Shown: positions 1,578 to 34,863 of the stretch, one piece after another | How the letters are laid out: every line of letters starts with the position of its first letter | Position numbering within the stretch: the first letter of the stretch is position 1 | From: a bacterium | Lineage (GTDB): Bacteria; CLD3; SB21 | Direction: 5' to 3' | Assembly (NCBI GenBank): GCA_019695335.1 | Contig: JAIBAF010000032.1 | Location: forward strand, 1 to 38,940 | DNA: 38,940 nucleotides | The notes under the pieces: model-generated | Told to the model about the DNA's origin: nothing | What the model saw: the letters and a program-made list of their open reading frames with translations, nothing else | Database searches by the model: none | Translations under genes and position numbers: made by a program

Positions 1578-1666
1578 GGTATAGGCTCCTATTTATTTAA
1601 CTATTAATTATAAACTCAATATAATTATTTATCTGAATTCGTACTTTTTTAGTTATTAAATAGCAA

Positions 1667-2824: not shown

Positions 2825-2896
2825 ACTTATGTCTAGAGTTGAGCGCACTTTAATTAAGCAATGTTAATCTCAACTTAAGCATAATTAAGCGAAAAG

Positions 2897-5104: not shown

Positions 5105-5184
5105 ACTGTGTTTTCCTTTTTTAATATTAATAAGTAATAAGTGCGATGAAATCATTTTAATGATAAGCGTGTTTGCCGGATCAA

Positions 5185-5208
5185 TCGACCGATCCGATAA
5201 AGTATGAC
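5185..5208 (-). promoter_or_regulatory. Shared 24-bp upstream element, copy 2
   Basis: The sequence is TCGAC followed by CGATCCGATAAAGTATGAC, differing from copy 1 at 2897-2920 only in the fifth base. It sits 80 bp before the esterase start codon, in the 139-bp gap below the PD40 gene. Conservation stops abruptly outside the 24 bp, which suits a binding site rather than a recent duplication of the whole leader. Confidence 0.6.
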
Positions 5209-5243
5209 TGAATAAGAATGTACAAAAAAAGGACAGAAGCCTA

Positions 5244-13840: not shown

Positions 13841-13880
13841 AAACGCTTTCAAATTTAAATTACTTATTTGAATAACTTAA

Positions 13881-15068: not shown

Positions 15069-15112
15069 GAGATTATTAACTCCATTTGTTTTTAATAACG
15101 GTTGAATTCGGA

Positions 15113-16090: not shown

Positions 16091-16098
16091 ATTTTGCT

Positions 16099-16142
16099 CC
16101 GATCATTGGCGAATTAGAAAAAATCGATGAATTTCATAAAAG
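16099..16142 (-). pseudogene. Relic of a DJ-1 gene start in the S41 leader
   Basis: Read on the minus strand, this leader matches the first codons of the DJ-1 gene at 13840 (plus-strand coordinates 13800-13846). It shares TTTATGAAATT, then CGATTTTTTCTAAT (14 identical bases), then CAATGAT, with a few short indels between the blocks. The resulting frame is broken: Met-Lys-Phe-Ile-Asp-Phe-Phe then stop. It appears to be a truncated duplicate of the signal-peptide end of a DJ-1 gene, left between the cupin and S41 genes. The upstream similarity (AATAAGT-AT) suggests that part of the leader was copied too. Confidence 0.6.
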
Positions 16143-16152
16143 CACAGATAAC

Positions 16153-16473
16153 TTATTTATAGTCTTCACGAACCGGATAAAAACAGTCAATAACAAAACA
16201 CTCCGTAATCGCTGTAGCAGTGTGTGGCACATGACTTGGAATAATGGCGATGATACCTGGTTCCAGCACACGGGTTTCATTTCCAACCGTCAGCTGAAGT
16301 TGTCCGCGAATAACATTGACAATCATTTCGTGAATATGTTCATGAAGGGGAATGACAGCTCCTGCTTTCATGTTCCAATAAGCTATAGTCATGTTATCTG
16401 AGTGAATAAAACGTCCGATAAAACCAGGCACAACTTCACGCTCCTGTACGTCATCTATTTTTATGAAACTCAT
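16153..16473 (-). CDS. Small cupin-domain protein
   Basis: This is a 106-residue single cupin barrel without a signal peptide, so it is cytoplasmic. The metal-binding motif HEHIHEM (residues 43-49) carries two or three His and the Glu of cupin motif 1. PSHVPHTATAI (about 79-89) is motif 2 with the final His. The central G-Q-L-Q-L-T-V-G and L-E-P-G-I-I strands are typical. Such small cupins bind a metal and act as dioxygenases, isomerases or sensors; the substrate cannot be read. The gene is the only non-exported one among the DJ-1 cluster, with 31 bp to the DJ-1 gene upstream. A cytoplasmic helper converting a product of these enzymes is one possible role. Confidence 0.85.
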   Translation of the reverse strand: MSFIKIDDVQEREVVPGFIGRFIHSDNMTIAYWNMKAGAVIPLHEHIHEMIVNVIRGQLQLTVGNETRVLEPGIIAIIPSHVPHTATAITECFVIDCFYPVREDYK

Positions 16474-16504
16474 CGATCATATCGCCTTATATTAATTCTG
16501 AATA

Positions 16505-17176
16505 TTATTTCTGCACAACCAAACCTTCGTTGGGTTTCCATTTGTCGTATTCCATGTACTTGGCTGTTCCTGCGGCAACATCTCTTCCAAGGAGTCGTTC
16601 GACAAGATGCAAAGCTCCGTCAATTCCGGCGGAAACGCCCGCAGTCGTTATGATCTGTCCGTTGTCAACATACCGGGTATTACGGTGCACGGTTGTTTTA
16701 GGAGCAGCTTTGATCAGGTTGTCAATTTGTCCGTACCAAGTTGTAGCTTCTTTGCCTTCCAGCAATCCTGCTTTATTCAGAATAAATGCGCCGGTGCAGA
16801 CAGACATTAGGAGGGCGGAATTTTTGGAAGCCTTTTGCAGCCACTGTATTACTTTTGGATTATCGCCTGATGGGCCGGAGTTGCCGCCAGGTAAAACAAT
16901 AATATCGGGTTGAGGGCAATTGTCGATGGTGTACTGGGGAACGACGGTGATAAACCGCTGACTTAAAATCGGATCGGTGGTTGCGGCTACAGTAAAGACA
17001 TTGAATGCAAAACCGCTGTCCGTCGATGCGGACGCAAATACTTCCGACGGTCCGCCGAAATCCAGAATTTCAACTCCCTGATAAATAAAAAATGCCACAT
17101 TCCGTTTTTTTACAGCCTGGCCTTGTAAGCAGCTTACAGTGAATGTCATTAAAAAAATATAAAAGAATGTTTTCAT
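16505..17176 (-). CDS. Exported DJ-1/PfpI-family protein (paralogue 2, short form)
   Basis: This 223-residue version contains only a signal peptide (to about residue 19, LQGQA) and the DJ-1/PfpI domain. FFIYQGVEILDFGGPSEVFA gives the conserved Asp, IVLPGGNSGPSG the glycine loop, and LMSVCTGAFILNKAGLL the nucleophile Cys elbow. TTAGVSAGIDGALHLVERLLG is typical of the isonitrile-hydratase/GlxA-like branch. AGAGGAA lies 5 bp before the start. The C-terminal extension present in its two paralogues at 12869 and 17192 is missing, so it is nearer the basic family length of about 200 residues. It is 15 bp downstream of the 17192 gene, in an operon with it and the cupin. The substrate is not identifiable. 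Confidence 0.88.
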   Translation of the reverse strand: MKTFFYIFLMTFTVSCLQGQAVKKRNVAFFIYQGVEILDFGGPSEVFASASTDSGFAFNVFTVAATTDPILSQRFITVVPQYTIDNCPQPDIIVLPGGNSGPSGDNPKVIQWLQKASKNSALLMSVCTGAFILNKAGLLEGKEATTWYGQIDNLIKAAPKTTVHRNTRYVDNGQIITTAGVSAGIDGALHLVERLLGRDVAAGTAKYMEYDKWKPNEGLVVQK

Positions 17177-17191
17177 TGGTTCCTCTTAAGA

Positions 17192-18220
17192 TTAATTCGA
17201 AATTTTATCGGTTTTGTTAATTTCAAACGCAATATTCAATTGATTCGTTCCGGTTGATTTGACTTCAACTGTCGCTCGCCAGTATACGCCGTTTTTATCG
17301 GCTAATTTCCATTCACTTTTGGAATTGGCATTGTCTTTTGACGTTACGAGATTCCACGATTGATCGGCGGCCCATTTTTTATTGATTTCATCCAGAACTT
17401 GTTTGGCGGGCTTGGTAGAAGGAATTAACCACACTTCATTCCATTGGCGCTTGTCACCATCGATTGTTACCAGACGGGCATTTGCTGAATAGAAAACTTC
17501 ATAGATTGCGCCCGGTAATTTTGTATCAGCCAGAGCGGCGCGCGCATAACCGGATTCCGGCTGCCAATTGTATTCGATGCCAAGAGCGACGCCCTGTGCT
17601 TCCGCTTTCCCTAAAATTTTTCCGATCAGATGCAGAGCTCCGTCCATGCCTGCAGATAAACCGGCCGTTGTTAAAATCTTTCCGTTATCGACGACGCGTT
17701 CATCCCAGACCGGAATAGTATTCGGTGAAAACGATTTCAGATCTTTAATGAAAAAAGAAGTCGTGGTTGAACGCAATCCTTCCAACAATCCCGCTTTAGC
17801 CAATAGAAAAGCTCCGTTGCATACGGACATCACGTATTGCGATTCTTTCGCTCGTTTTTTTATCCAATCAATGACCGTGATGTTTTCAAGCTGAGCGCCC
17901 ACACCTTCGCCTTGTGCACCCGGAGTAATATTGCCTCCACCCGGAATCACAAGGATATCCGGCTTAGGTTCATTTCCAAGAATGTAGGTCGGATTGACGC
18001 TCATTCCGAAAGCGGTTGTGATCGTACGTTTTTCGGCAACGGTATAAACATTAAATCTCGCGCCGCCGAGAAGTTCGTATGGTCCGGTATAGTCGATGAT
18101 TTGTACTCCGTCGAAGAGCAATATGGCCGCATTCAACGGTTGTTTAGTATTTGATTGGGCGTGTGTTTGAAAATTTAAAAGGAAGCTGAAAACACACGCT
18201 ATTCCTATCATTTTTAACAT
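17192..18220 (-). CDS. Exported DJ-1/PfpI-family protein with C-terminal extension (paralogue 3)
   Basis: The 342-residue protein has a signal peptide (to about residue 21), then a DJ-1/PfpI domain with LLFDGVQIIDYTGPYELLG, ILVIPGGG and the Cys elbow VMSVCNGAFLLAKAGLL, then a 130-residue extension with SGYARAALADTKL and a final beta-rich part. It resembles the protein at 12869 along its whole length, and that at 16505 only in the DJ-1 part. A good AGGAGT ribosome site lies about 8 bp before the ATG. It is probably the first gene of the operon running 18220 to 12869. Between its start and the CNGKC gene there is an ATCACTCAAAA sequence also found at 31923. It is probably a periplasmic hydratase or glyoxalase-like enzyme. 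Confidence 0.88.
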   Translation of the reverse strand: MLKMIGIACVFSFLLNFQTHAQSNTKQPLNAAILLFDGVQIIDYTGPYELLGGARFNVYTVAEKRTITTAFGMSVNPTYILGNEPKPDILVIPGGGNITPGAQGEGVGAQLENITVIDWIKKRAKESQYVMSVCNGAFLLAKAGLLEGLRSTTTSFFIKDLKSFSPNTIPVWDERVVDNGKILTTAGLSAGMDGALHLIGKILGKAEAQGVALGIEYNWQPESGYARAALADTKLPGAIYEVFYSANARLVTIDGDKRQWNEVWLIPSTKPAKQVLDEINKKWAADQSWNLVTSKDNANSKSEWKLADKNGVYWRATVEVKSTGTNQLNIAFEINKTDKISN

Positions 18221-18274: not shown

Positions 18275-18634
18275 TCAAACGTTAGGCGGATGAAAAAAAG
18301 AACGGTATAGAGGTGATATGAAAAAAATACGACGATCATCCTGAAATTCTGTCGTCGAAGAAAACGAATGCATGAATGACATTATTGCAGGGCACACGGC
18401 CCAAAACGATTCCGTTTTTTTTACCGTTGGAGTTTCTTCGCGTTTTTGTTCCTTATCCAGCTTTTTAAGCAACTGACATTTTCCATTACATTTTTTTTCA
18501 GGCTTGGAGCGATTCTCACAAAGATTAGCCGCGATATATTGCCGATTGACTTCAAAACAAACGACAATGCATAGTTTGTTTAACGCCTGAAAACTGATAG
18601 TCATCAGCAGAATTATGTTAATGATAGTTTTCAT
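18275..18634 (-). CDS. Small CNGKC-motif membrane or exported protein
   Basis: ATG at 18634 is chosen because the preceding 24 codons run into the next gene and the hydrophobic segment NIILLMTISFQALNKL then follows directly as a signal or anchor. The remaining part shows EVNRQYIAANLCENRSKPEKKCNGKCQLLKKL. This is a hallmark seen in short FCB proteins encoded near transport or redox genes, and its two cysteines (CNGKC) may bind metal. The rest of the 119 residues is polar, then ends in FFISPLYRSFFHPPNV. It follows the Ig-like gene by 61 bp on the same strand and may end that operon. The function is not established; metal binding is a guess. Confidence 0.7.
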   Translation of the reverse strand: MKTIINIILLMTISFQALNKLCIVVCFEVNRQYIAANLCENRSKPEKKCNGKCQLLKKLDKEQKREETPTVKKTESFWAVCPAIMSFMHSFSSTTEFQDDRRIFFISPLYRSFFHPPNV

Positions 18635-18695
18635 TAAGACTATACACTTGTCAGAGTTTAAACGTTTTGCTGAAATCGTAAGATTCTTAAAAGGC

Positions 18696-19871
18696 TTATT
18701 GAGCAATAAACGTCAACACTACTTCTTTTTCGTCTCTTTTTTGATAAAGCAGATTATTAAGGTCTACATCAAACAATTGCATAATGTCATTTCCGGCCAG
18801 GTCTTCTAGTCGGGTATCAATTTTTAATTGGTAGTTTCCATATTGCCAGGGTTTCAAAGGCGTGTAAATCCAGCGTTGCTCGTGATCATCGACCTGGATG
18901 CTGCCTTCTACTTCTTTGCCAGCGTTATCATAGATTGTGAGCAATCGATTTAGTAAGGCTTCATCCATCGGTTCATTAAATTTCAATACGAGTGGCTGTG
19001 ACGTTTCTGCGTTGGGAATGGTCAGAGTCCATTTTTTTTCATCCGGTGATACGCGGTCTGCAGGTCCGATAATGAAATTTTTTTCAAACGATGTCGTCAG
19101 AGAATTACCATAAACGTCTTTCCAATCTTTATCAATTTCTAACCGGTATTGATATCCTTCTTTCAACGGCAACCCAAGTTGAAGATTGGGTGCAAGATCC
19201 CGCTTGATTCTTCCCGGGTCAAAAAACAAAGTCAATCGTTTCTGTTCGTGATCCCAGAGTTCTGTCGGTGCGGCGAGAAAAGCATCTTCTTCGTAGATCC
19301 CCGTCGATACATTGAATAAACGGATGTGATCATAAGCTTGTCCGCGACGCATGGGTTCGGAAAAGTAAATGTAGACTTTGAGTAAATTCATCGGAAGAAT
19401 ATCGGAGGTCGGAAAAATTTTTTCAACTTTTGCGTTTGATTGCTTTTTTTCTCCGGCCATTTGAAATGTATAAGTTATTTTAGTCGCACGATTTTCGACC
19501 GGTTCATGGATCAGTGCGTACAGTTTTCCCACATCCACAAAAGCAGTGTAGCCGATGCCCGCAGTAAAACCAAATTTGGGTTTGAATCGGATTACGTCAT
19601 GTTCAATGGTATATTCTCCTAAAATTGAAGGATCGTTTTCAGAATAGGGCAACTCATTGCCGATATAGATATCCCAAAAAAGCTGCCATTGTCCGGTATT
19701 CAACGAACATTTTTCAATTTTCTCCAAAATCGTCAGATCGATTCCGAAAATTTCAAGAGATCCGTAATGAGGGCTGGCCTTATCATCGTTGATGGCTATA
19801 TGTATAGGCTCCGAAAATGCCGATAACGAGAAGACGCAAACCGTGATCATGCAACAAAATAAATTTTTCAT
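18696..19871 (-). CDS. Exported protein with Ig-like (SbsA-type) domains
   Basis: The first in-frame ATG (19871) follows a TTG; I use the ATG. A signal peptide (to about residue 21, FSEPI) precedes about 370 residues of beta-rich sequence. At least two stretches match the bacterial Ig-like SbsA pattern: VEKIFPTSDILPMNLLKVYIYFSEPM (about residues 150-175), and LVLKFNEPMDEALLN followed by the GNYQLKIDTRLEDLAGN ending (about 295-370). The terms FSEPM, FNEPMD and LEDLAGN are diagnostic of that domain. It probably forms an extended periplasmic or surface rod. It lies 19 bp downstream of the propeller gene at 19891 and looks cotranscribed. No enzyme motif is seen. Confidence 0.82.
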   Translation of the reverse strand: MKNLFCCMITVCVFSLSAFSEPIHIAINDDKASPHYGSLEIFGIDLTILEKIEKCSLNTGQWQLFWDIYIGNELPYSENDPSILGEYTIEHDVIRFKPKFGFTAGIGYTAFVDVGKLYALIHEPVENRATKITYTFQMAGEKKQSNAKVEKIFPTSDILPMNLLKVYIYFSEPMRRGQAYDHIRLFNVSTGIYEEDAFLAAPTELWDHEQKRLTLFFDPGRIKRDLAPNLQLGLPLKEGYQYRLEIDKDWKDVYGNSLTTSFEKNFIIGPADRVSPDEKKWTLTIPNAETSQPLVLKFNEPMDEALLNRLLTIYDNAGKEVEGSIQVDDHEQRWIYTPLKPWQYGNYQLKIDTRLEDLAGNDIMQLFDVDLNNLLYQKRDEKEVVLTFIAQ

Positions 19872-19890
19872 CAAACGTCTTTGATCGTAA

Positions 19891-21099
19891 TCACTTGACT
19901 ACTTTTTTTGAATTATCATAGAAATAAGGTTTTTTTCTGGCTCTGAAATCCAATAATCCTGTAAAAAAATCTCGCTGAAGTATTGCGATATAGGTATCGT
20001 CTATTTTGTCCAATTGGAGAACATCGACCAACGACATGTCGACATATTTCAATCCTGCAGAAAAATAAAGCCCGTTCCGGCCGATATCTTTTTGCCATTG
20101 CGGCAGGGTTTCAAATTCTTTTTCTCTTGAATCGGCCGTCAATTCCCGGGCTTCAATAATTTGATCGCAATCGACAACCATCATATTGCGATGGTAATTG
20201 GATATGAGAACAAATTTTTTGCCGTTATTTTCGAAAGAGATCATATCAATCGGTGCATTACCGGCGCCAAGATCAGCGATGGCCTTTCCACGGATTTTGC
20301 CTCCGGTTAATTTATCAACCGGAAAAAGAGCAATGGGTGTGCAGCCGTACCCCGCCATGAGGTTCAATTGGCCATTGATCATAATCGGCATCATCGACGT
20401 AATCGGCGCACGTGTTTCAAATTTGTGATGCGATGCATGATAGACTTCGAGCCCTGTGGCCGTAGCCGTTTTTTCTTTGAACGGAAATGTAACTTTGCGC
20501 AGCGTCGAAGAAAATTCTTCATTGGATAATCCCGAAAAATAAATGTTGCCGTCGTAATAGACGATGTCAGTAATCGTACTTTCATGACGTGCGTTATCTT
20601 TGGGAAGGGCATTTGTAATGGGAAGTTTAAAATAAGAAATATTGGCTAACGCAACTTCCGTTAGTTTTCCCTCGCGATCCATTTTGATCAGCAGAGGCAT
20701 GCGTTTGTCATTCTGAGTTACGCTTAATGAGAGGTAAACATTTTTAGAGAGTGGGTTGACGGCCATATCGTTGATCGTGATGTCGTCGCGGGTTTTTCCA
20801 ACCAATGCAGCCAGTTTCTTATCGATACTCAGTACGTCAAAATATTCATAATTGTTTGCCGTCTGCGTATCTTTCGTGTCAATTGCAAAAAGCGCATCGC
20901 CGTCGGCATCGCCAAAGAATAAAATGCCTTGAGGCCCGAAGGCGAGTTCACCAATTGACAACACTTCCGGCGAACCGGCTGTAAAATTAGCGGTGATATT
21001 TAAGACATTGTCAGGATGATCATCGGAACCGAACACGACTGAAAAGCCCATCACCAGGCATACACACATGTGAATGAACGAGTGATTGATTTTTTTCAT
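19891..21099 (-). CDS. Exported beta-propeller-like protein of unknown function
   Basis: The 402-residue product starts with a signal peptide (to about residue 23, FGSDD) and a GGAG site 8 bp upstream. The mature sequence has strand-turn repeats reminiscent of NHL or lactonase propellers: LSIGELAFGPQGILFFGDADGDALFAID, NPLSKNVYLSLSV, DIVYYDGNIYFSGLSNEEF, QLNLMAGYGCTPIALFPV and KFVLISNYHRNMMVVD. I do not recognise a named family. Two Cys and several His are present but no clear metal or catalytic motif. It lies in the same-strand run M28 - MBL - this gene - Ig-like gene, with short gaps of 19-33 bp, so it is probably part of that operon. It may bind a small ligand or another periplasmic protein. 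Confidence 0.75.
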   Translation of the reverse strand: MKKINHSFIHMCVCLVMGFSVVFGSDDHPDNVLNITANFTAGSPEVLSIGELAFGPQGILFFGDADGDALFAIDTKDTQTANNYEYFDVLSIDKKLAALVGKTRDDITINDMAVNPLSKNVYLSLSVTQNDKRMPLLIKMDREGKLTEVALANISYFKLPITNALPKDNARHESTITDIVYYDGNIYFSGLSNEEFSSTLRKVTFPFKEKTATATGLEVYHASHHKFETRAPITSMMPIMINGQLNLMAGYGCTPIALFPVDKLTGGKIRGKAIADLGAGNAPIDMISFENNGKKFVLISNYHRNMMVVDCDQIIEARELTADSREKEFETLPQWQKDIGRNGLYFSAGLKYVDMSLVDVLQLDKIDDTYIAILQRDFFTGLLDFRARKKPYFYDNSKKVVK

Positions 21100-21124: not shown

Positions 21125-22183
21125 TTATCTTAATGCTGCTTCTTTAAAAACAAGCTTGATCAAAAGAGCCGACGCCTGATCGAACCGGTCACCCAAAGTT
21201 TGGTCGTTACCGGCAAAGTCATCGCGAAATTCTGATAAATCGACGTGACCTTTGACTTCCTCAAACGAACGAAACTCCGCCGGTCCGACAATTTTTAAGC
21301 GCTCATTCATTTGGGTGACAGCGCTTTTCATCCAATTCGTCACCAATGTCAGATATTTTTTATCACGAAAAACTTCGCCGTGTCCCGGAACAATCGTTTC
21401 CGGATTTAAATCGGCGATACGGTCTAACGTTTTTATCCATTCACTCGGATAACCGTCATACGTGTACGGCATTGGATGAACCAATAAATCACCCGTCATA
21501 ACGATTTTTTCTTTTGGAAGATATACAATGGCATCGCCGGTTGTATTGCCTCTCCCGAAGTATCGGACATAAATTTCTCGACCTCCAATGTCAAAATTCA
21601 TATCTTGCGTGAAAGTGATGCTGGGCGACTGGTAAGTCAGGGGTTTCCATTCATTGACCACGATTTCACGCTGAGCGATCGATTGTTCGATTTCCGTTTG
21701 CTCATCTTTGTTCAAAGTCTTGCCGGTTTCATTTTTTCCCGATTGAAGCTGGACTTTGGATTTATTGATTCCGTCCACAAGCCGGGCTAATGCAGTACCG
21801 ACATACAGATCCATGTCCGCTTTGGTTTCTTCGTGTGCTATAATTCCGACACCCGGAAATGAATCGGCATATACAGCGTTATTGAAACAATGATCGTGAT
21901 GCCAATGAGTATTCAGTACATACCGAACGGGTTTATTGGTCCAGGTTCGTATTTGCCGGATGTCTTCGCGCGCCGTCGATGCCCAATACCCGGGATCGAC
22001 GACAAACACTTCACGGTTGCCGATGATCACAGTGGTATTTCCTTGCGGAAATCCATTCGGAGCAGGCTGATGCCGGATAACGTATACATTGTCAGCAATC
22101 TTAATTGAAGTAGATTGTGCCTGTATATTCCACGACAAAAAGCATAGCAAACATAAAAACAAGCAAACCGAACGGCTCATCAT
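21125..22183 (-). CDS. Exported metallo-beta-lactamase-fold hydrolase (paralogue 1)
   Basis: This 352-residue protein has a signal peptide (to about residue 23, IQAQS). The MBL core has FPQGNTTVIIGNREVFVVDPGYWAS, the metal motif THWHHDHCF (about residues 93-101), and IIAHEE. A Gly-Asn-Thr-Thr-Gly-Asp-Ala loop, MTGDLLVHP and IVPGHGEVF supply the remaining Asp and His ligands. It belongs to the large NDM/L1-like group of secreted hydrolases; activity on beta-lactams cannot be assumed, since the lid differs and several lineages act on lactones or nucleotides. It is paralogous to the protein at 24154 but lacks that protein's N-terminal Cys-rich module. It sits between the M28 and propeller genes of one transcription unit. 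Confidence 0.9.
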   Translation of the reverse strand: MMSRSVCLFLCLLCFLSWNIQAQSTSIKIADNVYVIRHQPAPNGFPQGNTTVIIGNREVFVVDPGYWASTAREDIRQIRTWTNKPVRYVLNTHWHHDHCFNNAVYADSFPGVGIIAHEETKADMDLYVGTALARLVDGINKSKVQLQSGKNETGKTLNKDEQTEIEQSIAQREIVVNEWKPLTYQSPSITFTQDMNFDIGGREIYVRYFGRGNTTGDAIVYLPKEKIVMTGDLLVHPMPYTYDGYPSEWIKTLDRIADLNPETIVPGHGEVFRDKKYLTLVTNWMKSAVTQMNERLKIVGPAEFRSFEEVKGHVDLSEFRDDFAGNDQTLGDRFDQASALLIKLVFKEAALR

Positions 22184-22216: not shown

Positions 22217-24007
22217 TTATTGTAACACGTTGGGTGCGAGCGCCATCTGGCAAACCGGGCAAACACCCGGTTTATCAAAATGAATATTATCACAGGGTAG
22301 ATTACATGGCGGGCAAATATACCCGTTGATTTTGAATTTCGTTCGGTCTGGCAAATTCAAATTTGGTTTATTTGCAATGGTCCATGTGGTCGCAAATACT
22401 AACCGCGTCACACGTGCCAGGTGTTCATAATCAATGGTCTGAGGTTCGTCGGTTACTTTGTGGTAATGCTCGGTCAATCCTGTTGAATAATACAAATACG
22501 GGATCATCTGGACTGCGAAATTAATATGATCCGATGGAAACGCATTCGGTGTAATTTCCAGTCCGTCATTGATCAGTTTGTTTGCAGTTGAATTGATGTC
22601 AACCAATGATTTGGATAAAACCGGCGAACTGACGAGATAGATGTAGTTTTTACTTTTTGTCGGATGTTTGAGATCGATACCGCCGACACCGTCCATATTG
22701 ATATTAACCACTGTGCGTTCCAGAGGAATGACCGGCTGATCAACCGTGTAAAAACGTGAACCTAAAATTCCTTTTTCTTCTGCGGAAGTGTTTAAAAATA
22801 GAATAGAACGTTTCGGCCCTTGTCCGGCATTTTTGGCATTCATAAAAGCCTGTGCAATAGTCAGCACGGCGGCCGTGCCGGAACCGTCATCGGCGGCGCC
22901 GTTAAAAATCTGATCTTTTTGCTGCTGATCGTGACCGAGGTGATCATCATTTTTCCCAAGATGATCGTAATGTGCTGACACGACAATAACTTCGTTCTTC
23001 AGAATCGGATCGGAGCCTTCGATATAACCTAAAACGTTTTCCGTTGGTAAAGCATCGAAATGCTCGCCCTTTGCCACGACCTCAACGTCTTTGACATTCA
23101 TGACAACCGGTTTCAGATTTTTATTGATCGCTTGTTGAAGGGAAGCGGACGTATAACCGGTATTTTTCAAAATAGCATCGGCGAATTGTGACGATACCAC
23201 GTAAGTAGGCGGTAAGAAAGCGCTCGAATTGTCCGACTTCAATGTGACGCCGCCGATACGATCAAATTGCGGCAGCGTTTGCGCCGCCAATTGGCGGATG
23301 CTCAGCTTCTGGCGCGGGCTAAGATCGCCGATGACGAGAACTCCTGCCGGTTGACCCGCTTGAATGATGGAGGTTATTTTCGTAAGAAACAGTTTTGACC
23401 ATGCGGAAACTTTTTTATTGGCTGTCGGCAGAAGACTGGTAGAATCGTTCAACAGCGGTTCGTCGGCGAAGATCAGCACCCATTTGCCGGTAATGGAAAT
23501 TTTTTGCGAGCTCAGCGCTTTAAAGTCGTTGTATTTCAATGAATCGGCAGCTATACCGTATCCGGCAAATACGATACCCGCCTGCACGTCTTTCGGTTCA
23601 CCGGAAGCAAAATAGGCCAGATCGTCCTGATGCTCGAGTGAAAAAGAACTGGTGATCACGGCTGCATTGTTAACGCGTACTTCAATCGTGCTGTTAGGTT
23701 TTGCGCGTTTGTAAACCGAAAACGGCTGGAAGTAAATATCCGGGGCGAAAGGATCGGTCGTTTTGACCGTGCCCATCGGCTTGACTCCCATCATGCGATA
23801 TTGATTGGCGATATAGTTGGCGGTAATTTTCTGGCCACGCGTTGATGTTTCGCGCCCTTCCGTCAGATCGGAAGCAATGAAATACAAATGTCCGGCGAGA
23901 CGGTCCGCCGTAATCGTTGGAAAATAATTAAAAAAAGATGTATCGGTTTTTTCCTGCGCGGTGAGTGATAAAGTCATGCACACTACCAAGAGTGAGAGCG
24001 ATTTCAT
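22217..24007 (-). CDS. M28-family zinc aminopeptidase with C-terminal Cys-rich module
   Basis: The exported 596-residue peptidase has a signal peptide (to about residue 17) and an N-terminal cap with a PA-like insert. Its co-catalytic zinc centre is visible as HYDHLG (His), FNGAADDGSGTA (bridging Asp), SAEEKGILGS (catalytic Glu and Glu ligand), NINMDGVGG (Asp) and TEHYHKVTDEP (His). After the catalytic domain a short extra piece (residues about 563-596) shows CPPC-x3-C and GVCPVCQMALAP, a zinc-ribbon-like heavy-metal module. The same module type, but N-terminal, occurs in the MBL protein at 24154. The gene begins its transcription unit, with a shared 15-bp motif 68 bp upstream and CGAGGAT as ribosome site. 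It should trim peptides in the periplasm; the extra module's role is unknown. Confidence 0.92.
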   Translation of the reverse strand: MKSLSLLVVCMTLSLTAQEKTDTSFFNYFPTITADRLAGHLYFIASDLTEGRETSTRGQKITANYIANQYRMMGVKPMGTVKTTDPFAPDIYFQPFSVYKRAKPNSTIEVRVNNAAVITSSFSLEHQDDLAYFASGEPKDVQAGIVFAGYGIAADSLKYNDFKALSSQKISITGKWVLIFADEPLLNDSTSLLPTANKKVSAWSKLFLTKITSIIQAGQPAGVLVIGDLSPRQKLSIRQLAAQTLPQFDRIGGVTLKSDNSSAFLPPTYVVSSQFADAILKNTGYTSASLQQAINKNLKPVVMNVKDVEVVAKGEHFDALPTENVLGYIEGSDPILKNEVIVVSAHYDHLGKNDDHLGHDQQQKDQIFNGAADDGSGTAAVLTIAQAFMNAKNAGQGPKRSILFLNTSAEEKGILGSRFYTVDQPVIPLERTVVNINMDGVGGIDLKHPTKSKNYIYLVSSPVLSKSLVDINSTANKLINDGLEITPNAFPSDHINFAVQMIPYLYYSTGLTEHYHKVTDEPQTIDYEHLARVTRLVFATTWTIANKPNLNLPDRTKFKINGYICPPCNLPCDNIHFDKPGVCPVCQMALAPNVLQ

Positions 24008-24075
24008 ACGTATCCTCGATTTATGTTTTTCAAGAAATTAGGTTCCAAATACAATAATTAAATCAAAGATAAAGG

Positions 24076-24090
24076 TCTTGAACGATATTG
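24076..24090 (-). promoter_or_regulatory. Shared 15-bp motif, copy A (before M28 unit)
   Basis: The plus strand reads TCTTGAACGATATTG, so the coding strand reads CAATATCGTTCAAGA. It lies 68 bp before the M28 start. The identical 15 bases occur at 28053-28067 and a one-mismatch form at 26641-26655, all at similar distances from a minus-strand start. Downstream on the minus strand a TATCTTTG, resembling the FCB -7 box TAnnTTTG, follows after 5 bp. It probably binds an activator. Confidence 0.65.
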
Positions 24091-24153
24091 CTCTTTTAAT
24101 ATGTGAGTTTTTCACGGCAGCTATGATGAATTTTCATTCAGGGATTTGGTCGT

Positions 24154-25341
24154 TTAGCGCAATTTGACTTCGTAAAACGCATCCCGAATTAAGCAACCCT
24201 GAACAGTGCGATCAAAAAAATCGCCAAGATATTTATCATCGCCTGCAAACTCCTTCCGTATGGCCGCCAGATCCATGGTTTTTTGCACATCTTCAAGTTG
24301 AGCGCCATTACCCAGTTTGTAAAATACGCGGCGGACTTCGGAAACAGTCGTGGTCAATAAACGAACAATCTGGTTCAGGTAAGACATATCATTTAAAATT
24401 TCCCCATGCCCCGGAACAATCTGTACCGGACCAAGCGCGGCCATGCGCTGAAGCGTTCCATTCCATTCCGATGGATAGCCGCTGCATAAATACGGCGTCG
24501 GATAAACCAGAATATCACCCGTGATAAGAATTTTTTCTTTCGGAAGAAAAATGACCGCGTCACCGGCGGTATTGCCGAGTCCCATGTGTTTAATTTGGAC
24601 TTCACGGTTACCGAGATTAATATTTAATTCCGTTTCGAAAGAAAGATTCGGAAGCCGGTCGGTGAAATTGACAAATTCAGCGACAACTTTCTCACGGGCA
24701 GCGATATCGTTTTTAATCGCTTTAATTGCATCTTCTTTAAGAGGATTTCCATTCTCATCTTTTCCCGATTCGACTTTTTGTTTGAGTTTTTTCAAATCGT
24801 TCGGATACCGGATCAGCCACTCTTTATTGAAGCCTTCCATTTCTTCCAGCGTCACTTTGTGAGCGATGATACCGATGGATGGAAACGCCGCGGCGTACGT
24901 ACTGTTACCCCATGTGTGATCGTAATGCCAATGCGTATTAACAAGATAGCGTACCGGCTTGTCCGTCCACGTTTTTATTTTTGCAATGTCTTCGCGTGCG
25001 GTGGACGGTAAAAAACAGGCATCGACTACCAACACTTCGCGTTCGCCGACGATAACCGTGGTGTTGCCTTGAGGAAATCCCGTGGCCGCGGCATTGTGGT
25101 GAATGACGTAAACGCCGTCGGCAATTTTCTTCGGTTCAAGCGGCGGAGCTATGCCGGTTTCTTTGTCGACAACGTACATACCGCACGACGGACACATCCC
25201 CTGTTTAGTAAAAATTTCACCGTCGCGGATGCAACCGCACGGAATACAAACATACGTGCGAGCCGTTTCCTGTTTTTGAGACCACCCTGAACATGTACAT
25301 CCCAAAAGTATGACGAGAAGTGAACAGATAAATCGTTTCAT
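24154..25341 (-). CDS. Exported metallo-beta-lactamase-fold hydrolase with N-terminal Cys-rich module (paralogue 2)
   Basis: The 395-residue protein has a signal peptide (to about residue 21, with a possible lipobox Cys at 15 or 17). A Cys-rich module at residues 30-58 follows, with VCIPCGC and MCPSCGM (Cys32, 35, 37, 50 and 53). Then comes an MBL-fold domain with FPQGNTTVIVGEREVLVVD, THWHYDHTWGN (metal-binding HxHxD), IIAHK, a GNTAGDAVIFLP loop, ITGDILVYP and IVPGHGEIL. It shares most of its core with the protein at 21125. The module is like the heavy-metal-binding YHS-type zinc ribbon and is seen again at the C-terminus of the M28 peptidase. It is cotranscribed with the propeller gene at 25366 (24-bp gap), under motif copy B. 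Confidence 0.9.
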   Translation of the reverse strand: MKRFICSLLVILLGCTCSGWSQKQETARTYVCIPCGCIRDGEIFTKQGMCPSCGMYVVDKETGIAPPLEPKKIADGVYVIHHNAAATGFPQGNTTVIVGEREVLVVDACFLPSTAREDIAKIKTWTDKPVRYLVNTHWHYDHTWGNSTYAAAFPSIGIIAHKVTLEEMEGFNKEWLIRYPNDLKKLKQKVESGKDENGNPLKEDAIKAIKNDIAAREKVVAEFVNFTDRLPNLSFETELNINLGNREVQIKHMGLGNTAGDAVIFLPKEKILITGDILVYPTPYLCSGYPSEWNGTLQRMAALGPVQIVPGHGEILNDMSYLNQIVRLLTTTVSEVRRVFYKLGNGAQLEDVQKTMDLAAIRKEFAGDDKYLGDFFDRTVQGCLIRDAFYEVKLR

Positions 25342-25365
25342 TTTGTTTTCCGATAAAGTGAATGA

Positions 25366-26583
25366 TTATTGAATGCGTTTTTTGTTGAATCGGGGATCCG
25401 TTTTGCTCCAATTGGGTTGAGTTACTCTCATAACTAAGGCATCCTGCCGCCCGAATCCGATATTTTCCGAGTAGGCGCCGATCAACAGCGAACCGTCCGT
25501 CATCGGTAAAATGGCGGTACCATAATCGCTCTTGGACCCTCCGAATGTTGAAACGAAACCTTCAAAACTTCCTGTTGAATCGAGACGCGTCACAAAAATA
25601 TCCCACTCGCCGGCGCCGGCGCTTTTTGTGTAGCCGGTCAGCCAGCAGCGTCCTGAAGAATCAATATGACTCATCATCACCCGGTCGTCTTCGGAACCGC
25701 CAAAGATCTCTACGCGTAATACTTCGCCTGTTGGTCTGAGAGTTATGGCCATCATATCATTGACCGCTGCATTCCAACTGCTGGTATATCCGGCTGCTTG
25801 AATACGTCCATCGGGATAAATCTGTAAACTATGCGGTATGTCGGTTCCACCGTCCGTGCCGACTTCTTGTTTCCACACTTCTGTTCCGTCTTGATTGATT
25901 TTGATGAACAAGACATCAGTATTGGTATTGTGTTCGGTGGTACCGGTTAATACGAAGCCGCCGTCGGTCGTGGGTTCAATGTAAAGCGCCTGATCATTTT
26001 CGGGTCCGCCATACGTTTTGCGCCATTGCTCAATTCCGCCATTATTAATTTTAATCAACAGTACGTCGCGCTTTCGTGTGCTGTCGCCTTCGGTAAAACC
26101 GGCCAGGATAAATCCTCCGTCCAATGCCGGTGCAATATCCGTAGCGCGATCGTACCGTGAATCGCCGAAGGCATTTTCTTTAATAATATACCCGTCGTGA
26201 GTAAGAATGGCTGAATAAGCATCGATGCCTCCGTGACCAATGCGGGTTGTAAAACCGCCGACGGCAAATAGGCTGTCGTACGTTTCCGTTACCGCCCAGA
26301 AAGCATCGACGCCACCGCCAATGCCATGTTCGCGTGTCCAAATGATTTTTCCATTGGGAGTAAATTTTGAAATCAGGCTGTGCCAATCGGATTTGGTGTC
26401 GTCGCGATTTAGAAAACCCACGGCTACAAAATTACCATCGCGAGTCGGAATGATGTGATTAATCCAATCGTCCAGAGGAGAAGTATAATCAATACGCCAG
26501 ACAATTTTCGAAGAGCCGTCGCTGGTGAAATTTTCTACACGCTCCCATCCGATCACTATCAGGCAGATCAATAAATAGATCAT
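25366..26583 (-). CDS. Exported seven-repeat beta-propeller protein
   Basis: This 405-residue protein, with a hydrophobic N-terminus (residues 1-12) that may be a signal peptide, shows about seven repeats of the type D-G-N-F-x-x-x-G-x-x-x followed by W-x-x-x-x-G-G. Cores are NFVAVGFLN, LFAVGGFTT, GFILAGFTE, GFVLTGTTE, RIQAAGYTS, RCWLTGYTK and LLIGAYSE. This is the same propeller class as the protein at 13881, usually in secreted FCB proteins. No catalytic motif or C-terminal sorting tag is visible. It starts its transcription unit and is followed after 24 bp by the MBL gene, with motif copy B 57 bp upstream. It probably binds a ligand or partner of the neighbouring hydrolases. Confidence 0.84.
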   Translation of the reverse strand: MIYLLICLIVIGWERVENFTSDGSSKIVWRIDYTSPLDDWINHIIPTRDGNFVAVGFLNRDDTKSDWHSLISKFTPNGKIIWTREHGIGGGVDAFWAVTETYDSLFAVGGFTTRIGHGGIDAYSAILTHDGYIIKENAFGDSRYDRATDIAPALDGGFILAGFTEGDSTRKRDVLLIKINNGGIEQWRKTYGGPENDQALYIEPTTDGGFVLTGTTEHNTNTDVLFIKINQDGTEVWKQEVGTDGGTDIPHSLQIYPDGRIQAAGYTSSWNAAVNDMMAITLRPTGEVLRVEIFGGSEDDRVMMSHIDSSGRCWLTGYTKSAGAGEWDIFVTRLDSTGSFEGFVSTFGGSKSDYGTAILPMTDGSLLIGAYSENIGFGRQDALVMRVTQPNWSKTDPRFNKKRIQ

Positions 26584-26640
26584 GTTCTAAATTGTGTTTT
26601 ATATGGTTCGGATGGAATATATTGAAATGAGAGGGGAGAG

Positions 26641-26655
26641 TCTTGAACGATCTTG
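26641..26655 (-). promoter_or_regulatory. Shared 15-bp motif, copy B (before propeller-MBL unit)
   Basis: TCTTGAACGATCTTG differs from copies A and C in one position. It lies 57 bp before the ATG at 26583, in the 85-bp gap after the UlaG-like MBL gene. A GAGAGGGGAG tract sits just on the coding-strand downstream side. Confidence 0.6.
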
Positions 26656-26668
26656 CAGTCAAAGACGG

Positions 26669-27460
26669 TTAGAAACGAACGGTTTGATAGAGTTTGTAAA
26701 AGATCACGGAACCGGGAATCTGCTGTTCAAATTCAATCAGTTCACTTTCTTTCTCACCGGGATAAATATGGGTAATGATGATTGATTTGGGGTGAATCCA
26801 TTGTTCGACCAACTTACGGTTATCGGCATCGTACACCACCCAGAGAGGGAGGATCGCGATATCGATGTTATCGTGTAATAGGTTCAGCGCTTTCAAAACC
26901 TGACCATCCGCATTCATATCCCCGACATGAAGTATTTTTTTTCCACCTATATCGATAATATATCCGATATTTTGTACGGCGTGATGACGTTGTGGAGAGG
27001 AGTGTGGAATATTTAGTGCAATAACCGTATAAGGCATGCCCGACAGCGTGTCTCTGTCGGCTGGTTTTAATGAGAAGACACGTTTCCGAACCAACGAGAA
27101 ATCTTCATATAACGCCATTGAATCGGCCGCTTGTTGCGGAACACATGCGCGGGCATCGGGATGTTTCAAAAAACGTAACGTTAACGAAGGCTCAAAATGA
27201 TCACGGTGGCGATGCGTGACGAATAGCGAGCGCGTGTTTTCGAAACGTCCTTGTCGATTTATAATTGAGTCAACCAGCGATTGAGGCGGATACATATACA
27301 GCGAATCATAAAAACTATGCAACCCGTCAATGATCAGCGATTGTTTTTCGTCCTGGATCAGCACACCCATATTGCCTAAATAGCTGATGCTGAACGTTTG
27401 CGATTGAACAGCCGGTGCGATCAGTGCACAGCAGCAGACAATGAGATTATAAAACTTCAC
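26669..27460 (-). CDS. Exported UlaG-like metallo-beta-lactamase-fold protein (paralogue 3)
   Basis: The start codon is GTG (27460); no closer ATG fits. A signal peptide (to about residue 20, VQSQ) leads into an MBL-fold protein of 263 residues. It is more like UlaG/RomA lactonase-phosphodiesterase types than the NDM-like paralogues at 21125 and 24154. THRHRDHFEPSL carries the HxHxDH motif, GKKILHVGDMNADGQV has the bridging Asp, and IITHIYPGEK has the last His. The Cys of NDM-like enzymes is absent. It lies 42 bp downstream of the small gene at 27503, in one unit under motif copy C. Possible substrates are lactones or cyclic phosphodiesters in the periplasm. Confidence 0.88.
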   Translation of the reverse strand: MKFYNLIVCCCALIAPAVQSQTFSISYLGNMGVLIQDEKQSLIIDGLHSFYDSLYMYPPQSLVDSIINRQGRFENTRSLFVTHRHRDHFEPSLTLRFLKHPDARACVPQQAADSMALYEDFSLVRKRVFSLKPADRDTLSGMPYTVIALNIPHSSPQRHHAVQNIGYIIDIGGKKILHVGDMNADGQVLKALNLLHDNIDIAILPLWVVYDADNRKLVEQWIHPKSIIITHIYPGEKESELIEFEQQIPGSVIFYKLYQTVRF

Positions 27461-27502
27461 GAGGAAAGTTTTTTTTTGGATTTAAAAATGAGATGCACAA
27501 TT

Positions 27503-27991
27503 TCAACCTAATTCATCCATATTAGTTGCAATTGAATTCATGTAACCATCAACATCAGGGCGCTGAGGATCAGACATGATACATTTCACCCATGCGCTGC
27601 GCTCCTGCCATATCACGGCACAATCCCACACACACATATTCATACCGGTAAGCGTATTGAAACGGTAATCCAGCGGATGATCGATCGGCGCAACAAAACT
27701 ATGCGTGACGATCATATTTTCATCAGCAAACCAATTAAAGGAAATAAAATTGGCGTTCCACCCGTTGTGTAAAATAATAAATCCAATTCCATACGATGAA
27801 ACTTTGGACACGTCGGGAATTTTTTTCCACAATCTTTTGACAAGAGTAAGATATTCTGAACTTGCTTGTGTATTAGAATGGTAGGTGATTGTATAAATTT
27901 TAAAACTCCATTCGTCGATCATCCAATGGCCGAGATAGCCAAGCGCTCTTGGAGCAAAAGGTTCTGACAGTTTAATAGGGATAACATTCAT
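27503..27991 (-). CDS. Conserved hypothetical cytoplasmic protein
   Basis: I take the ATG at 27991 instead of 28030, because it places copy C of the shared motif at 61 bp, like copies A and B, and because the protein then starts MNVIPIKLSEPFAPRALG. The 162-residue product has no signal peptide. It has conserved-looking patches GHWMIDEWSFKIYTI, YGIGFIILHNGWNANFISFNWF and NMCVWDCAVIWQERSAW. These resemble an uncharacterised family of proteobacterial and FCB proteins for which I know no function. It is the first gene of a two-gene unit with the UlaG-like MBL protein. No catalytic motif is apparent. Confidence 0.78.
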   Translation of the reverse strand: MNVIPIKLSEPFAPRALGYLGHWMIDEWSFKIYTITYHSNTQASSEYLTLVKRLWKKIPDVSKVSSYGIGFIILHNGWNANFISFNWFADENMIVTHSFVAPIDHPLDYRFNTLTGMNMCVWDCAVIWQERSAWVKCIMSDPQRPDVDGYMNSIATNMDELG

Positions 27992-28052
27992 AGGGTAAAA
28001 AATTTTACAAGAGTATGTTGCTAATAGCAATATATAAATGCCAATGTAAAAA

Positions 28053-28067
28053 TCTTGAACGATATTG
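28053..28067 (-). promoter_or_regulatory. Shared 15-bp motif, copy C (before DUF-MBL unit)
   Basis: TCTTGAACGATATTG is identical to copy A and lies 61 bp before the ATG at 27991. On the coding strand it is preceded by AAAAAGTCAATA and followed by a TACATTGG, a near match to the TAnnTTTG box. It also lies 100 bp before the plus-strand gene at 28168, so control of that gene cannot be excluded. Confidence 0.62.
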
Positions 28068-29141: not shown

Positions 29142-29174
29142 GACTTGCTCCTTGATCTAATAATTTATCGGATC

Positions 29175-29216: not shown

Positions 29217-29594
29217 ATGTTCATCGGCGAAGTTTCAAAAAAAACCGGATTTAGCCGCGACACAATTCGTTTTTATGAAAAAGTAGGGGTGATCGGAAAA
29301 AATCTTTCACGCGGCGAAAACCGATATCGGCAATACGGCGATACAGACATTCTGCGCCTCCAGCGTATTAAAAAAATCAAAGCGTACGGCTTTACGCTTA
29401 CGGAAATCAAAAAAATTCTGGAAGCTTGGGAGACGGACACCGTTACCTGTAATGCTATGTTGAAAATTGCACGAAAAAAGACCCGGGAAATAGAAATTAA
29501 AATCCGGGAGATGGAACGAATAAAAGAACGTATCAGCGTTGAATTCAAACGATGCGCTCTTCAATGTTACAATAACCGATGCAAAATTTTATAA
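29217..29594 (+). CDS. MerR-family thiophilic-metal (Hg/Pb-like) sensor regulator
   Basis: A 125-residue MerR protein with an N-terminal winged HTH (residues 1-70: IGEVSKKTGFSRDTIRFYEKVG, RYRQYGDTDILRLQRIKKIKAYGFTLTEIKKIL), a long dimerisation helix, and a Cys-rich tail. Cysteines lie at 78, 113, 117 and 122. The 78-113-122 set has exactly the spacing (35 and 9 residues) of MerR Cys82-117-126 and the same positions as PbrR, so a trigonal Hg(II) or Pb(II) site is predicted. It lacks the SoxR Fe-S cysteine cluster and the CueR C112-C120 loop spacing. It is divergent from the CC protein with a MerR-type promoter between them. The regulator overlaps the next plus gene by 16 bp. Confidence 0.92.
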   Translation: MFIGEVSKKTGFSRDTIRFYEKVGVIGKNLSRGENRYRQYGDTDILRLQRIKKIKAYGFTLTEIKKILEAWETDTVTCNAMLKIARKKTREIEIKIREMERIKERISVEFKRCALQCYNNRCKIL

Positions 29595-31970: not shown

Positions 31971-32393
31971 TTAAGGGAGGATACGAAGTTCTTTGGCCCG
32001 TTGGATTGCTTGAGTACGCCGCCGGGCGTCTAATTTCATAAAAAGATTGGATGAATGAGTCTTAATCGTATTGATGGAAACGTAAAGTCTGTCAGCTATT
32101 TCTTGGTTGGATAATCCTTGTGCTATCAATTCGAGTATTTCATATTCACGTTTACTGATATCAAGTTTTTGTAAGGCTTTCTCATCACATGTAAAATCGG
32201 GGCGAGCGAGAATGACTTTAACCCGTGTCAATCGCCGTCCAGCCCAAACGCCAATGAAAGAAAAAATCACTGCCACCGCACCGATATAAATCTCCAGTGT
32301 AAAATCGCGAACAAAAAACCGGTACTCGATGAATTTAAGTAAAGCAATCAATGCCGCCATGGCGATGCCGTATAGAATAACTGTTTTAAACAT
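31971..32393 (-). CDS. Two-helix membrane LuxR-type transcriptional regulator
   Basis: The start is set at ATG 32393, because the frame upstream of it overlaps the divergent aldolase gene and encodes no recognisable protein. The 140-residue protein has two transmembrane helices (about residues 5-22 and 32-52) and then a LuxR/GerE HTH (about 75-137: SKREYEILELIAQGLSNQEIADRLYVSINTIKTHSSNLFMKL). There is no response-regulator receiver or autoinducer domain, so it is a membrane-tethered DNA-binding protein. It pairs with the DUF4199 gene downstream. Target sites could be the dyad at 31923 and its relatives. No good ribosome site is visible. Confidence 0.84.
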   Translation of the reverse strand: MFKTVILYGIAMAALIALLKFIEYRFFVRDFTLEIYIGAVAVIFSFIGVWAGRRLTRVKVILARPDFTCDEKALQKLDISKREYEILELIAQGLSNQEIADRLYVSINTIKTHSSNLFMKLDARRRTQAIQRAKELRILP

Positions 32394-32506
32394 GCCGAAA
32401 ACTTGTAAAAAAAAGAGAAAAAAACAAGCCCTGAACCAAAGAGGTAAAGTTTTTCGTGGCAATCTTCGACGCGAGTTCGTACAATCATTTTTATCGATGT
32501 AACATC

Positions 32507-32512
32507 TATAAT
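32507..32512 (+). promoter_or_regulatory. Candidate -10 element before the threonine aldolase gene
   Basis: A perfect TATAAT lies 17 bp before the start at 32530, with an AGGA ribosome-like site between. No good -35 box is seen at 16-18 bp spacing, which would suit activator-dependent or alternative-sigma transcription. Confidence is low. Confidence 0.3.
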
Positions 32513-32529
32513 TATTAGGATACAACCGT

Positions 32530-33705
32530 ATGAGTAGTCGCAGGGCTTTTTTGAAAGGAACGGCCATAGCTGCTGTTCCAACCATATTTAATTTTCCAGG
32601 GGCCATCGCTTCTTTGATATTGCCTGCATTTAATGCGGACGAAATCAATTTTTTCTTTGACGGCGATCGGAATTATACCGACCCGGAGTTTTATTCTAAA
32701 AAATTGTATGAACTTGCAAAAGCCACCAAAGATCAAGCCGATTTCTACGGGCAGGGCGGAGCTGTGGCTGCACTGGAGCAGGCTTTTGCCGCCGTAACCG
32801 GAAAAGAAAAGGCGATTTTCGTTCCGTCCGGCACGATGGCGAATCAGTTGGCATTAAAAATTCTGAGCGGAAATAACACCAAAATTTTTGTTCAGGAAAC
32901 GAGCCATATTTTCAGAGACGAAGCGGATGCGGCACAATCGGTTCATGGCAAGCGTCTGATTCCGTTGGCCAAAGGACAAGGCAATTTTACATTGGACGAA
33001 TTGAAAGAGGCCGTCGACTATCATAATCAGGGTGAAGTTTTCAAAAGCGGCATCGGCGCTATTTCCATTGAGAATCCTGTTCGCCGCATGGACGGCCAGG
33101 TATTTAAATTCGATGAAATGAAAAAAATTTCGGCGTACTGTAAAGAGCAGGGATTCAAATTACATCTGGATGGCGCGCGTTTGCACATCGCTTCGTCGTA
33201 CTCCGGAGTTTCCATTAAAGAGTATGCGTCGTGTTTCGATACGGTGTATATTTCATTATACAAATATCTCGGAAGCGGTGGCGGCGCGATATTGTGCGGC
33301 GATGCGCCGGTTATCGATCAGATGCCGCATTGGATTAAAGTATACGGCGGTACGATGTTCCAAAGCTGGCCCTACGCGCTGATGGCTTTGAACAATCTTA
33401 AAGACATCGAAACACGGTTGAGTATGACTAAACAAAAAGGCGAGGATTTTGTTGCGCTGATCAATCAAACCGACGAATTTCAGATTGGCAAAATGGCCGA
33501 TGGTACGAATGTCTTCGATCTGACCATCAAAGGCACCATCGATTACAAAAAATTTAACGATCTGCTTAGGGAAAAGGGGATTTTAATGGGACGGGCTAAC
33601 AAAGGGATTGTCAAAACATTGATCAATGAAACGATTCTGAAAAGAGATAGCCATGAAATTTTGAAAGCCATGAAAGAAGCTTACAGCAAAGCGAAAACAG
33701 CTTAA
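32530..33705 (+). CDS. Threonine aldolase-family PLP enzyme with twin-arginine signal
   Basis: The 391-residue protein has a Tat signal, SSRRAFLKGTAIAAVP (residues 2-17, Arg-Arg pair at 4-5), followed by a fold-type I PLP enzyme of the threonine aldolase/beta-eliminating lyase family. Motifs in order are FYGQGGAVAALE, IFVPSGTMANQLAL (PLP phosphate loop), ISIENPVRRMDG, KLHLDGARLHIA (Asp binding the pyridine nitrogen) and SLYKYLGSGGG, whose Lys245 should form the Schiff base. Relatives cleave L-threonine or L-allo-threonine to glycine and acetaldehyde in the cytoplasm. Tat export of a folded, PLP-loaded enzyme is chemically consistent but uncommon. It is followed after 15 bp by an AraC gene, probably in one operon. 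Confidence 0.93.
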   Translation: MSSRRAFLKGTAIAAVPTIFNFPGAIASLILPAFNADEINFFFDGDRNYTDPEFYSKKLYELAKATKDQADFYGQGGAVAALEQAFAAVTGKEKAIFVPSGTMANQLALKILSGNNTKIFVQETSHIFRDEADAAQSVHGKRLIPLAKGQGNFTLDELKEAVDYHNQGEVFKSGIGAISIENPVRRMDGQVFKFDEMKKISAYCKEQGFKLHLDGARLHIASSYSGVSIKEYASCFDTVYISLYKYLGSGGGAILCGDAPVIDQMPHWIKVYGGTMFQSWPYALMALNNLKDIETRLSMTKQKGEDFVALINQTDEFQIGKMADGTNVFDLTIKGTIDYKKFNDLLREKGILMGRANKGIVKTLINETILKRDSHEILKAMKEAYSKAKTA

Positions 33706-33720
33706 TCGTCAAGGAATATT

Positions 33721-34863
33721 ATGTTTTGGCCAGCGCTTTTTTCAATTGGAATTGCTCAAGGGTTATTTTTAATCACCTTGATCATGATCAAAGGTCGTAA
33801 AAACTTCCTTGCTTCCCGATTGATCAGCATTATGATTTTTCTGATGATGTTATCGAATTTCGGATATTTGGCTATCCGTACTGAGTTATTGTATTATATT
33901 CCTCAAGTCTATGGATTGTCTTTTGGATCGTTGTTTCTTTTTGGTCCTCTGTTATATTTTTATTCCAAAGCCGTTTTGGTAAACGGATTTCAATGGCGTA
34001 GAAAAGATTGGTTACATTTTCTCCCATTTTTAATTCAAGCGACGACGGCGATACCGTGGTTTCTGAATGATTCCGAAGATTGGATTGTTTTTATTCGTAC
34101 CTTTCTTGCAGGTAATTTAATCGTCGAGCTTTATCCAAAAATCGTATATGCCGCCCAAAATTTTCATTTACTGATTTACATTATCTTGACGTCACAACGA
34201 ATTCGTTTGGCAAGACAAGAACACCAACAGGCGAAGTACGTTGTTCCGGTTTCTTCACGTGTCCGATGGCTTACCGGCTTAACGATGTGTTTGGCGCTTT
34301 TACTGGCTGCAGTCTTTTCGATGTATATTTTTGTAATAGTGCATGGAAAATTCAACCCGGTCACGAATTACATCTATACCGTTGTCACTTCCGGAATTAT
34401 CTATTTCATGGCTTATTCGTATGTACTAAATCCTGAATTGATCACGCCTGATTTTTTGCAGAAATACCGGACTTATATGCCGTTTGACGGCGATATAGGC
34501 GAGAGGTATCTGGAAAAATTGAAGTCCTTGATGGATCATGAAAAATTGTATGTGAATCCCGATTTAAAACTTGCAGATCTGGCTGAGGCATTAAGTTTGC
34601 CACTACATCAGGTTTCGAAACTGATTAACGATAAGTTTGGTAAATCGTTTACCGATCTGATCAACGCGTATCGCGTTCAAGAATTTATCGACCGCGTTAA
34701 TCGCCCTGAATATCAGTCACATTCCGTTTTTGGCCTGGCGCTTGACGTTGGTTTTAATAGCAAATCCGCATTCAACTCTGCCTTTAAAAAACTGACCGGT
34801 AAAACACCTTCCGAATACCGTCATGAGTCTGAAAAATCAGGCTTTTCAAGTCCGATTTTATAA
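33721..34863 (+). CDS. AraC-family regulator with membrane-embedded N-terminus (second copy)
   Basis: This 380-residue regulator has seven hydrophobic segments in its first 235 residues (first near 4-22, last near 212-232) and a C-terminal AraC domain (about 260-372). The domain shows LAEALSLPLHQVSKLINDKFGKSFTDLINAYRVQEF and FGLALDVGFNSKSAFNSAFKKL followed by TGKTPSEYR. It is a paralogue of the gene at 1667 and shares its topology and FWP start. It lies between the Tat aldolase and the hydrolase at 34942 and may sense a product of that cluster. An AAGGAAT sequence is the ribosome site. The effector is unknown; a hydrophobic or peptide signal is often proposed for such proteins. Confidence 0.88.
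   Translation: MFWPALFSIGIAQGLFLITLIMIKGRKNFLASRLISIMIFLMMLSNFGYLAIRTELLYYIPQVYGLSFGSLFLFGPLLYFYSKAVLVNGFQWRRKDWLHFLPFLIQATTAIPWFLNDSEDWIVFIRTFLAGNLIVELYPKIVYAAQNFHLLIYIILTSQRIRLARQEHQQAKYVVPVSSRVRWLTGLTMCLALLLAAVFSMYIFVIVHGKFNPVTNYIYTVVTSGIIYFMAYSYVLNPELITPDFLQKYRTYMPFDGDIGERYLEKLKSLMDHEKLYVNPDLKLADLAEALSLPLHQVSKLINDKFGKSFTDLINAYRVQEFIDRVNRPEYQSHSVFGLALDVGFNSKSAFNSAFKKLTGKTPSEYRHESEKSGFSSPIL

Follow-up and report, generated by a model that had tools for sequence, protein, structure and literature searches.

In Salmonella, the activators MarA, SoxS and RamA act at class II promoters, where a forward-oriented site lies ~30-42 bp upstream of the start and overlaps the -35 element; the number of -35 matches in these promoters averages 1.9 and is never above 3 (PMC10268841). 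Among LacI-family regulators ~90% are local, and local regulators of this family are often autoregulated (PMC4052901). MerR proteins bind in the spacer of promoters whose -10 and -35 elements lie too far apart (PMC12781870). Here we describe a 15-bp motif that precedes three adjacent transcription units (units 1 to 3, in the direction of transcription) on the minus strand of a 38,940-nt stretch of bacterial DNA, which we call the window, and we compare its arrangement with these systems.

Motif copies and promoter anatomy

The motif CAATATCGTTCAAGA occurs exactly at 28053-28067 (copy 1) and 24076-24090 (copy 3), and with one mismatch, as CAAGATCGTTCAAGA, at 26641-26655 (copy 2). All copies are on the minus strand and intergenic, and copy 2 is 13 nt past the stop codon of the upstream gene, which encodes a protein of the metallo-beta-lactamase (MBL) fold. 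The coordinates, strand and single mismatch are exactly those claimed in a first-pass annotation of this DNA. The same annotation placed the copies 57-68 bp before the first start codon of each unit, and we measured 68 nt (ATG 24007), 57 nt (ATG 26583), and 61 nt (ATG 27991) from the motif end to the start codon. For unit 1, ATG 27991 was preferred over TTG 28030, which would lie ~8 nt ahead of the point where transcription is predicted to begin; if TTG 28030 were the start of unit 1, only 22 nt would separate it from copy 1. The 15-mer is asymmetric and not palindromic, and 3 of 3 copies point towards the genes, which is the single orientation expected of an AraC-type site.

The genome's own promoter was derived as TTGAC-N17-TATATT from hexamer counts in upstream regions; the promoter background covered 20 stretches of 20 kb and, besides these, the window and three more stretches of the same genome. 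In these upstream regions the -10 element TATATT peaks 30-50 nt before starts, and TTGAC precedes it with a distinct spacer of 17 nt. Each motif copy is followed by a predicted -10 element on the same strand: TATATT at 28029-28034, 18 nt past copy 1 (-35-equivalent AAGATT, 16-nt spacer), TATATT at 26616-26621, 19 nt past copy 2 (AAGACT, 17-nt spacer), and a weaker TATTGT at 24051-24056, 19 nt past copy 3 (AAGACC, 17-nt spacer). In random upstream regions of the same genome, the empirical probability of finding TATATT at one spacing in two of three regions was 0.003. The three -35-equivalents match TTGACA at 2-3 of 6 positions, and no 9-of-12 sigma-70 match using the predicted -10 elements was found at these promoters. 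Since the motif ends 18-19 nt before the -10, its last four bases (AAGA) are the first four positions of the poor -35 hexamer. If transcription begins 7 nt past the -10, the motif would lie at about -46 to -31 (about -45 to -31 for copy 1) and the leaders would be 26-37 nt long. Thus, as at class II promoters, a site overlaps the -35 region at a fixed distance from the -10, and the native -35 is poor at all three promoters. The palindrome within an over-long spacer that marks MerR-type promoters was not found, and the motif ends before the spacer.

On this evidence, the 15-mer is probably the binding site of one locus-specific class II activator that serves three adjacent operons. The predicted activator would sit at about -46 to -31 in three promoters of the primary sigma factor, each with a TATATT-like -10 and a poor -35. 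Because the -35 is poor and the site lies at the -35, transcription of the operons concerned (27.99-26.67 kb, 26.58-24.15 kb, and 24.0 kb downwards) would depend on the bound protein. The most likely type of activator would be a protein of the AraC family that binds as a monomer, since the site is asymmetric, has a single orientation and overlaps the -35 by ~4 bp. Some findings count against such an activator: the -10 of copy 3 is poor, unit 1 has an alternative promoter match (TTGCTA-N17-TAAAAT, 28030-28002) downstream of the motif, and no nearby regulator gene has the site upstream.

The position of the site would suit occlusion equally well: a repressor bound to it as its operator would lie over the -35 region of all three promoters and keep RNA polymerase out. 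The confinement of the copies, the simulations of upstream regions described below and the spacing to the -10 support a shared protein site in this case as well. We infer activation rather than repression, since promoters with no good -35 (2-3 of 6 positions, and no 9-of-12 sigma-70 match with this -10) would have little basal activity left for repression. Moreover, dimeric repressors mostly use palindromes, and the site is asymmetric. A repressor is therefore possible but unlikely.

A fixed distance of 18-19 nt to the -10 and an overlap with the -35 place would also be expected if an alternative sigma factor recognised the 15-mer itself as an extended -35 element. However, a dedicated sigma factor normally has its own -10 and more than one target locus. 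Here the -10 is the TATATT of this genome's ordinary promoters and the targets are confined to one locus, which makes this explanation improbable. Finally, the motif might act in RNA, as a leader or 3' end element, given that one copy is only 13 nt after a stop codon and that all copies are 57-68 nt ahead of starts. Folding of the three regions was unremarkable (z -0.99, 0.13, and -0.30), there was no credible Rfam match, and the predicted transcription starts fall downstream of the motif; a role in RNA is thus highly improbable. Sigma-54, MerR, and RNA-element readings were all rejected as a poor fit.

Chance, duplication and reach in the genome

An exact 15-mer pair with a third copy within one mismatch appeared in 24 of 100 third-order Markov sequences of window length (39 kb), and thus the bare repeat is weak evidence. 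With the search confined to upstream regions of the window, 0 of 3000 simulated sets contained such a triple, before orientation, adjacency and spacing to the -10 were counted. The earlier assertion that the pattern is hard to explain by chance therefore holds with this restriction, and chance as the source of the three copies is extremely unlikely. A sample of 214 upstream regions of the same genome (~490 kb, A/T-rich runs set aside) contained only three such families, namely the CAATATCGTTCAAGA motif, one more within the window, and a cassette-like array elsewhere, on a different contig. At G000:C2:84599-93472 (within L123), the repeated segments TAACATTAGCAATTCCC, TTACNGTGATCGAGCC, and TTAAGCTAATGAAAACC stand ahead of three small genes, possibly an integron-like cassette array.

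Since all copies of the motif are inside 4 kb, they might have arisen by recent duplication at the locus or be a small dispersed repeat with no function. However, over the 45 nt that precede each copy, the sequences resembled one another no more than shuffled ones did (p 0.26, 0.77, and 0.69), and over the 45 nt that follow, which contain the -10, they were only marginally more alike (p 0.015, 0.07, and 0.10). This dissimilarity of the flanks outside the site argues against a recent duplication. In addition, the first genes of the three units are unrelated (a family-less protein, a beta-propeller and an M28 peptidase), orientation and spacing to the -10 are preserved, and the genome has no further copies with up to one mismatch. 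A duplication or functionless repeat is thus very unlikely.

The first-pass annotation had suggested one regulator for a wider set of exported hydrolases, and had called for a genome search for matches 50-75 bp before their starts. In the whole 3.76-Mb genome there were no further copies with up to one mismatch. There were 16 copies with two mismatches, all 16 of them inside ORFs, and no motif within two mismatches was found near the MBL paralogs at G000:C4:13508, C49:26925, and C1:125485. The site is therefore locus-specific, and a genome-wide regulon was rejected. A single shared regulator for the three units still fits, since the orientation, the -10 spacing and the lack of likeness outside the site are consistent with one DNA-binding protein, which would co-regulate them. 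The looser pattern TCGTTCA-N18-24-TATWTT had 10 matches, of which two are sites described here and seven fall within ORFs; the remaining one (G000:C4:76838) is intergenic. A four-mismatch candidate before 8818-9639 (AAATTTCTTTGAAGA, 58 nt from the start) was unconvincing.

In G001, the single genome of the same genus among those compared, the DNA of the unit 3 MBL gene and the right flank from 32512 are both matched at 79% identity. The contigs of G001 break off at the positions that correspond to 22027 and 32512 of the window; whatever lies between them, including all three copies of the motif, is either missing or falls into a gap of the assembly. The more distant relatives examined yielded no orthologous cluster. 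G001, G002, and G004 also contain matches with up to one mismatch; these appear unrelated, being single hits that, by eye, are coding or at a gene 3' end.

Genes of the three units

All genes described in this section are on the minus strand unless they are given without a unit. Unit 1 begins with a gene (27503-27991) whose product has no family match and no signal-like N-terminus. The second gene (26669-27460, GTG start) encodes a UlaG/PRK00685-like MBL-fold hydrolase (PF12706/PF13483) with a signal-like N-terminus. Unit 2 begins with a repeat beta-propeller (25366-26583) with DUF5122 or delta-60-like repeats, below cut-offs, followed by an MBL-fold hydrolase (PF00753, 24154-25341) with a lipobox-like N-terminus and then a cysteine-rich HMBD-like segment. 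This segment (CIPCGC...CPSCGM) resembles the C-terminal heavy-metal-binding domain (PF19335) of the M28 peptidase that begins unit 3 (22217-24007). The second gene of unit 3 (21125-22183) encodes another PF00753 MBL-fold hydrolase. The unit 2 and unit 3 MBLs are paralogs (47% identical), and their nearest NCBIfam models are SoxH-related, below cut-off. The claim that each unit encodes an exported MBL-fold protein agrees with these family matches and with the N-termini, which are signal-like or lipobox-like in 3 of 3 when judged by eye. A degradation or detoxification role, which was also proposed, comes from family names alone and is not supported.

Unit 3 probably extends far past the M28 and MBL genes, as closely spaced genes on the same strand continue to ~18.3 kb. 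These encode an uncharacterised exported protein, a Big_5 protein and a small ORF (18275-21099), with gaps of <30 nt or overlaps, and they are a likely continuation of the unit. The same-strand run possibly reaches 9.7 kb. There are three DJ-1/PfpI-family genes and a cupin gene at 12869-18220, and a compact version is found in G001:C246, where the unit 3 MBL adjoins a DJ-1/cupin pair. Heavy-metal-binding-like cysteine segments are fused to the C-terminus of an M28 protein (22217-24007) and to the N-terminus of an MBL (24154-25341); a similar M28 fusion is found at G006:C455:7335-8537.

Candidate regulators and comparison with known systems

The genome has 29 matches to the AraC-type HTH (HTH_18), and two of them are in the window (1667-2848 and 33721-34863), both in proteins with hydrophobic N-terminal halves. 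The window also encodes one LuxR-type HTH protein (31971-32648) and a MerR protein (29217-29594). The motif was found upstream of none of these four regulator genes. The AraC-type gene 33721-34863 has an ortholog in G001 (83% identical) without the motif; because the G001 contigs break where the promoters would lie, this absence is no argument against that regulator.

The AraC-type gene 1667-2848 more likely goes with a different repeated element, TCATACTTTATCGGATCGNTCGA. TCATACTTTATCGGATCGNTCGA occurs at 2897-2919 and 5185-5207 (minus strand) with all 22 specified bases identical, and in the genome, with up to three mismatches, it is found only upstream of this gene and of a hydrolase gene (4280-5155). 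Thus TCATACTTTATCGGATCGNTCGA is likely to be an autoregulatory AraC site. One copy of it has the core ATCGTTC in common with the CAATATCGTTCAAGA motif. A related 15-mer at 29160-29174 may be due to chance. In G001:C59, the matched blocks around window 765-2848 and 4280-6239 stand ~90-100 bp apart, and therefore the AraC gene, its neighbours and TCATACTTTATCGGATCGNTCGA seem to have been either inserted here or deleted from G001.

It is conceivable, though we think it doubtful, that one of the two AraC-type proteins is membrane-tethered, binds CAATATCGTTCAAGA and switches on the locus of exported MBL, M28, propeller and DJ-1-like proteins on a periplasmic signal. To our knowledge, such a regulon would be a previously undescribed one. 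In two relatives (L109 8517-10934 and L112 5689-7353) a membrane AraC-type gene is directly upstream of an MBL homologue, and a histidine kinase and a LytTR-like regulator precede it. The AraC-MBL adjacency in G004 and G006 was set aside, as it concerns another AraC, most closely related in this genome to the one at G000:C4:72 kb (60%), and the promoters of the adjacent MBL genes have a different sequence. The 15-mer provides a handle on the co-regulation of an exported hydrolase cluster in a little-studied lineage, and it can serve as bait for the regulator.

The sequence of the site is new; the kind of arrangement, in which a local activator would bind at the -35, is an ordinary one. MerR-type promoters share with this locus a nearby MerR gene, but they have a palindrome in a 19-20 bp spacer, whereas the site here is asymmetric, lies at the -35 and is followed by a spacer of normal length (16-17). 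Like the local regulons known from comparative genomics, the locus has one motif before a few adjacent operons; unlike them, it has no evident regulator gene, and none nearby carries the site upstream. The marbox of MarA, SoxS and RamA, monomer activators of the AraC/XylS family (PMC10268841), resembles the motif in being an asymmetric site in one orientation that overlaps a poor -35 and is followed by a normal -10. The regulons of MarA type are spread genome-wide, whereas CAATATCGTTCAAGA is confined to one locus and has a different sequence.
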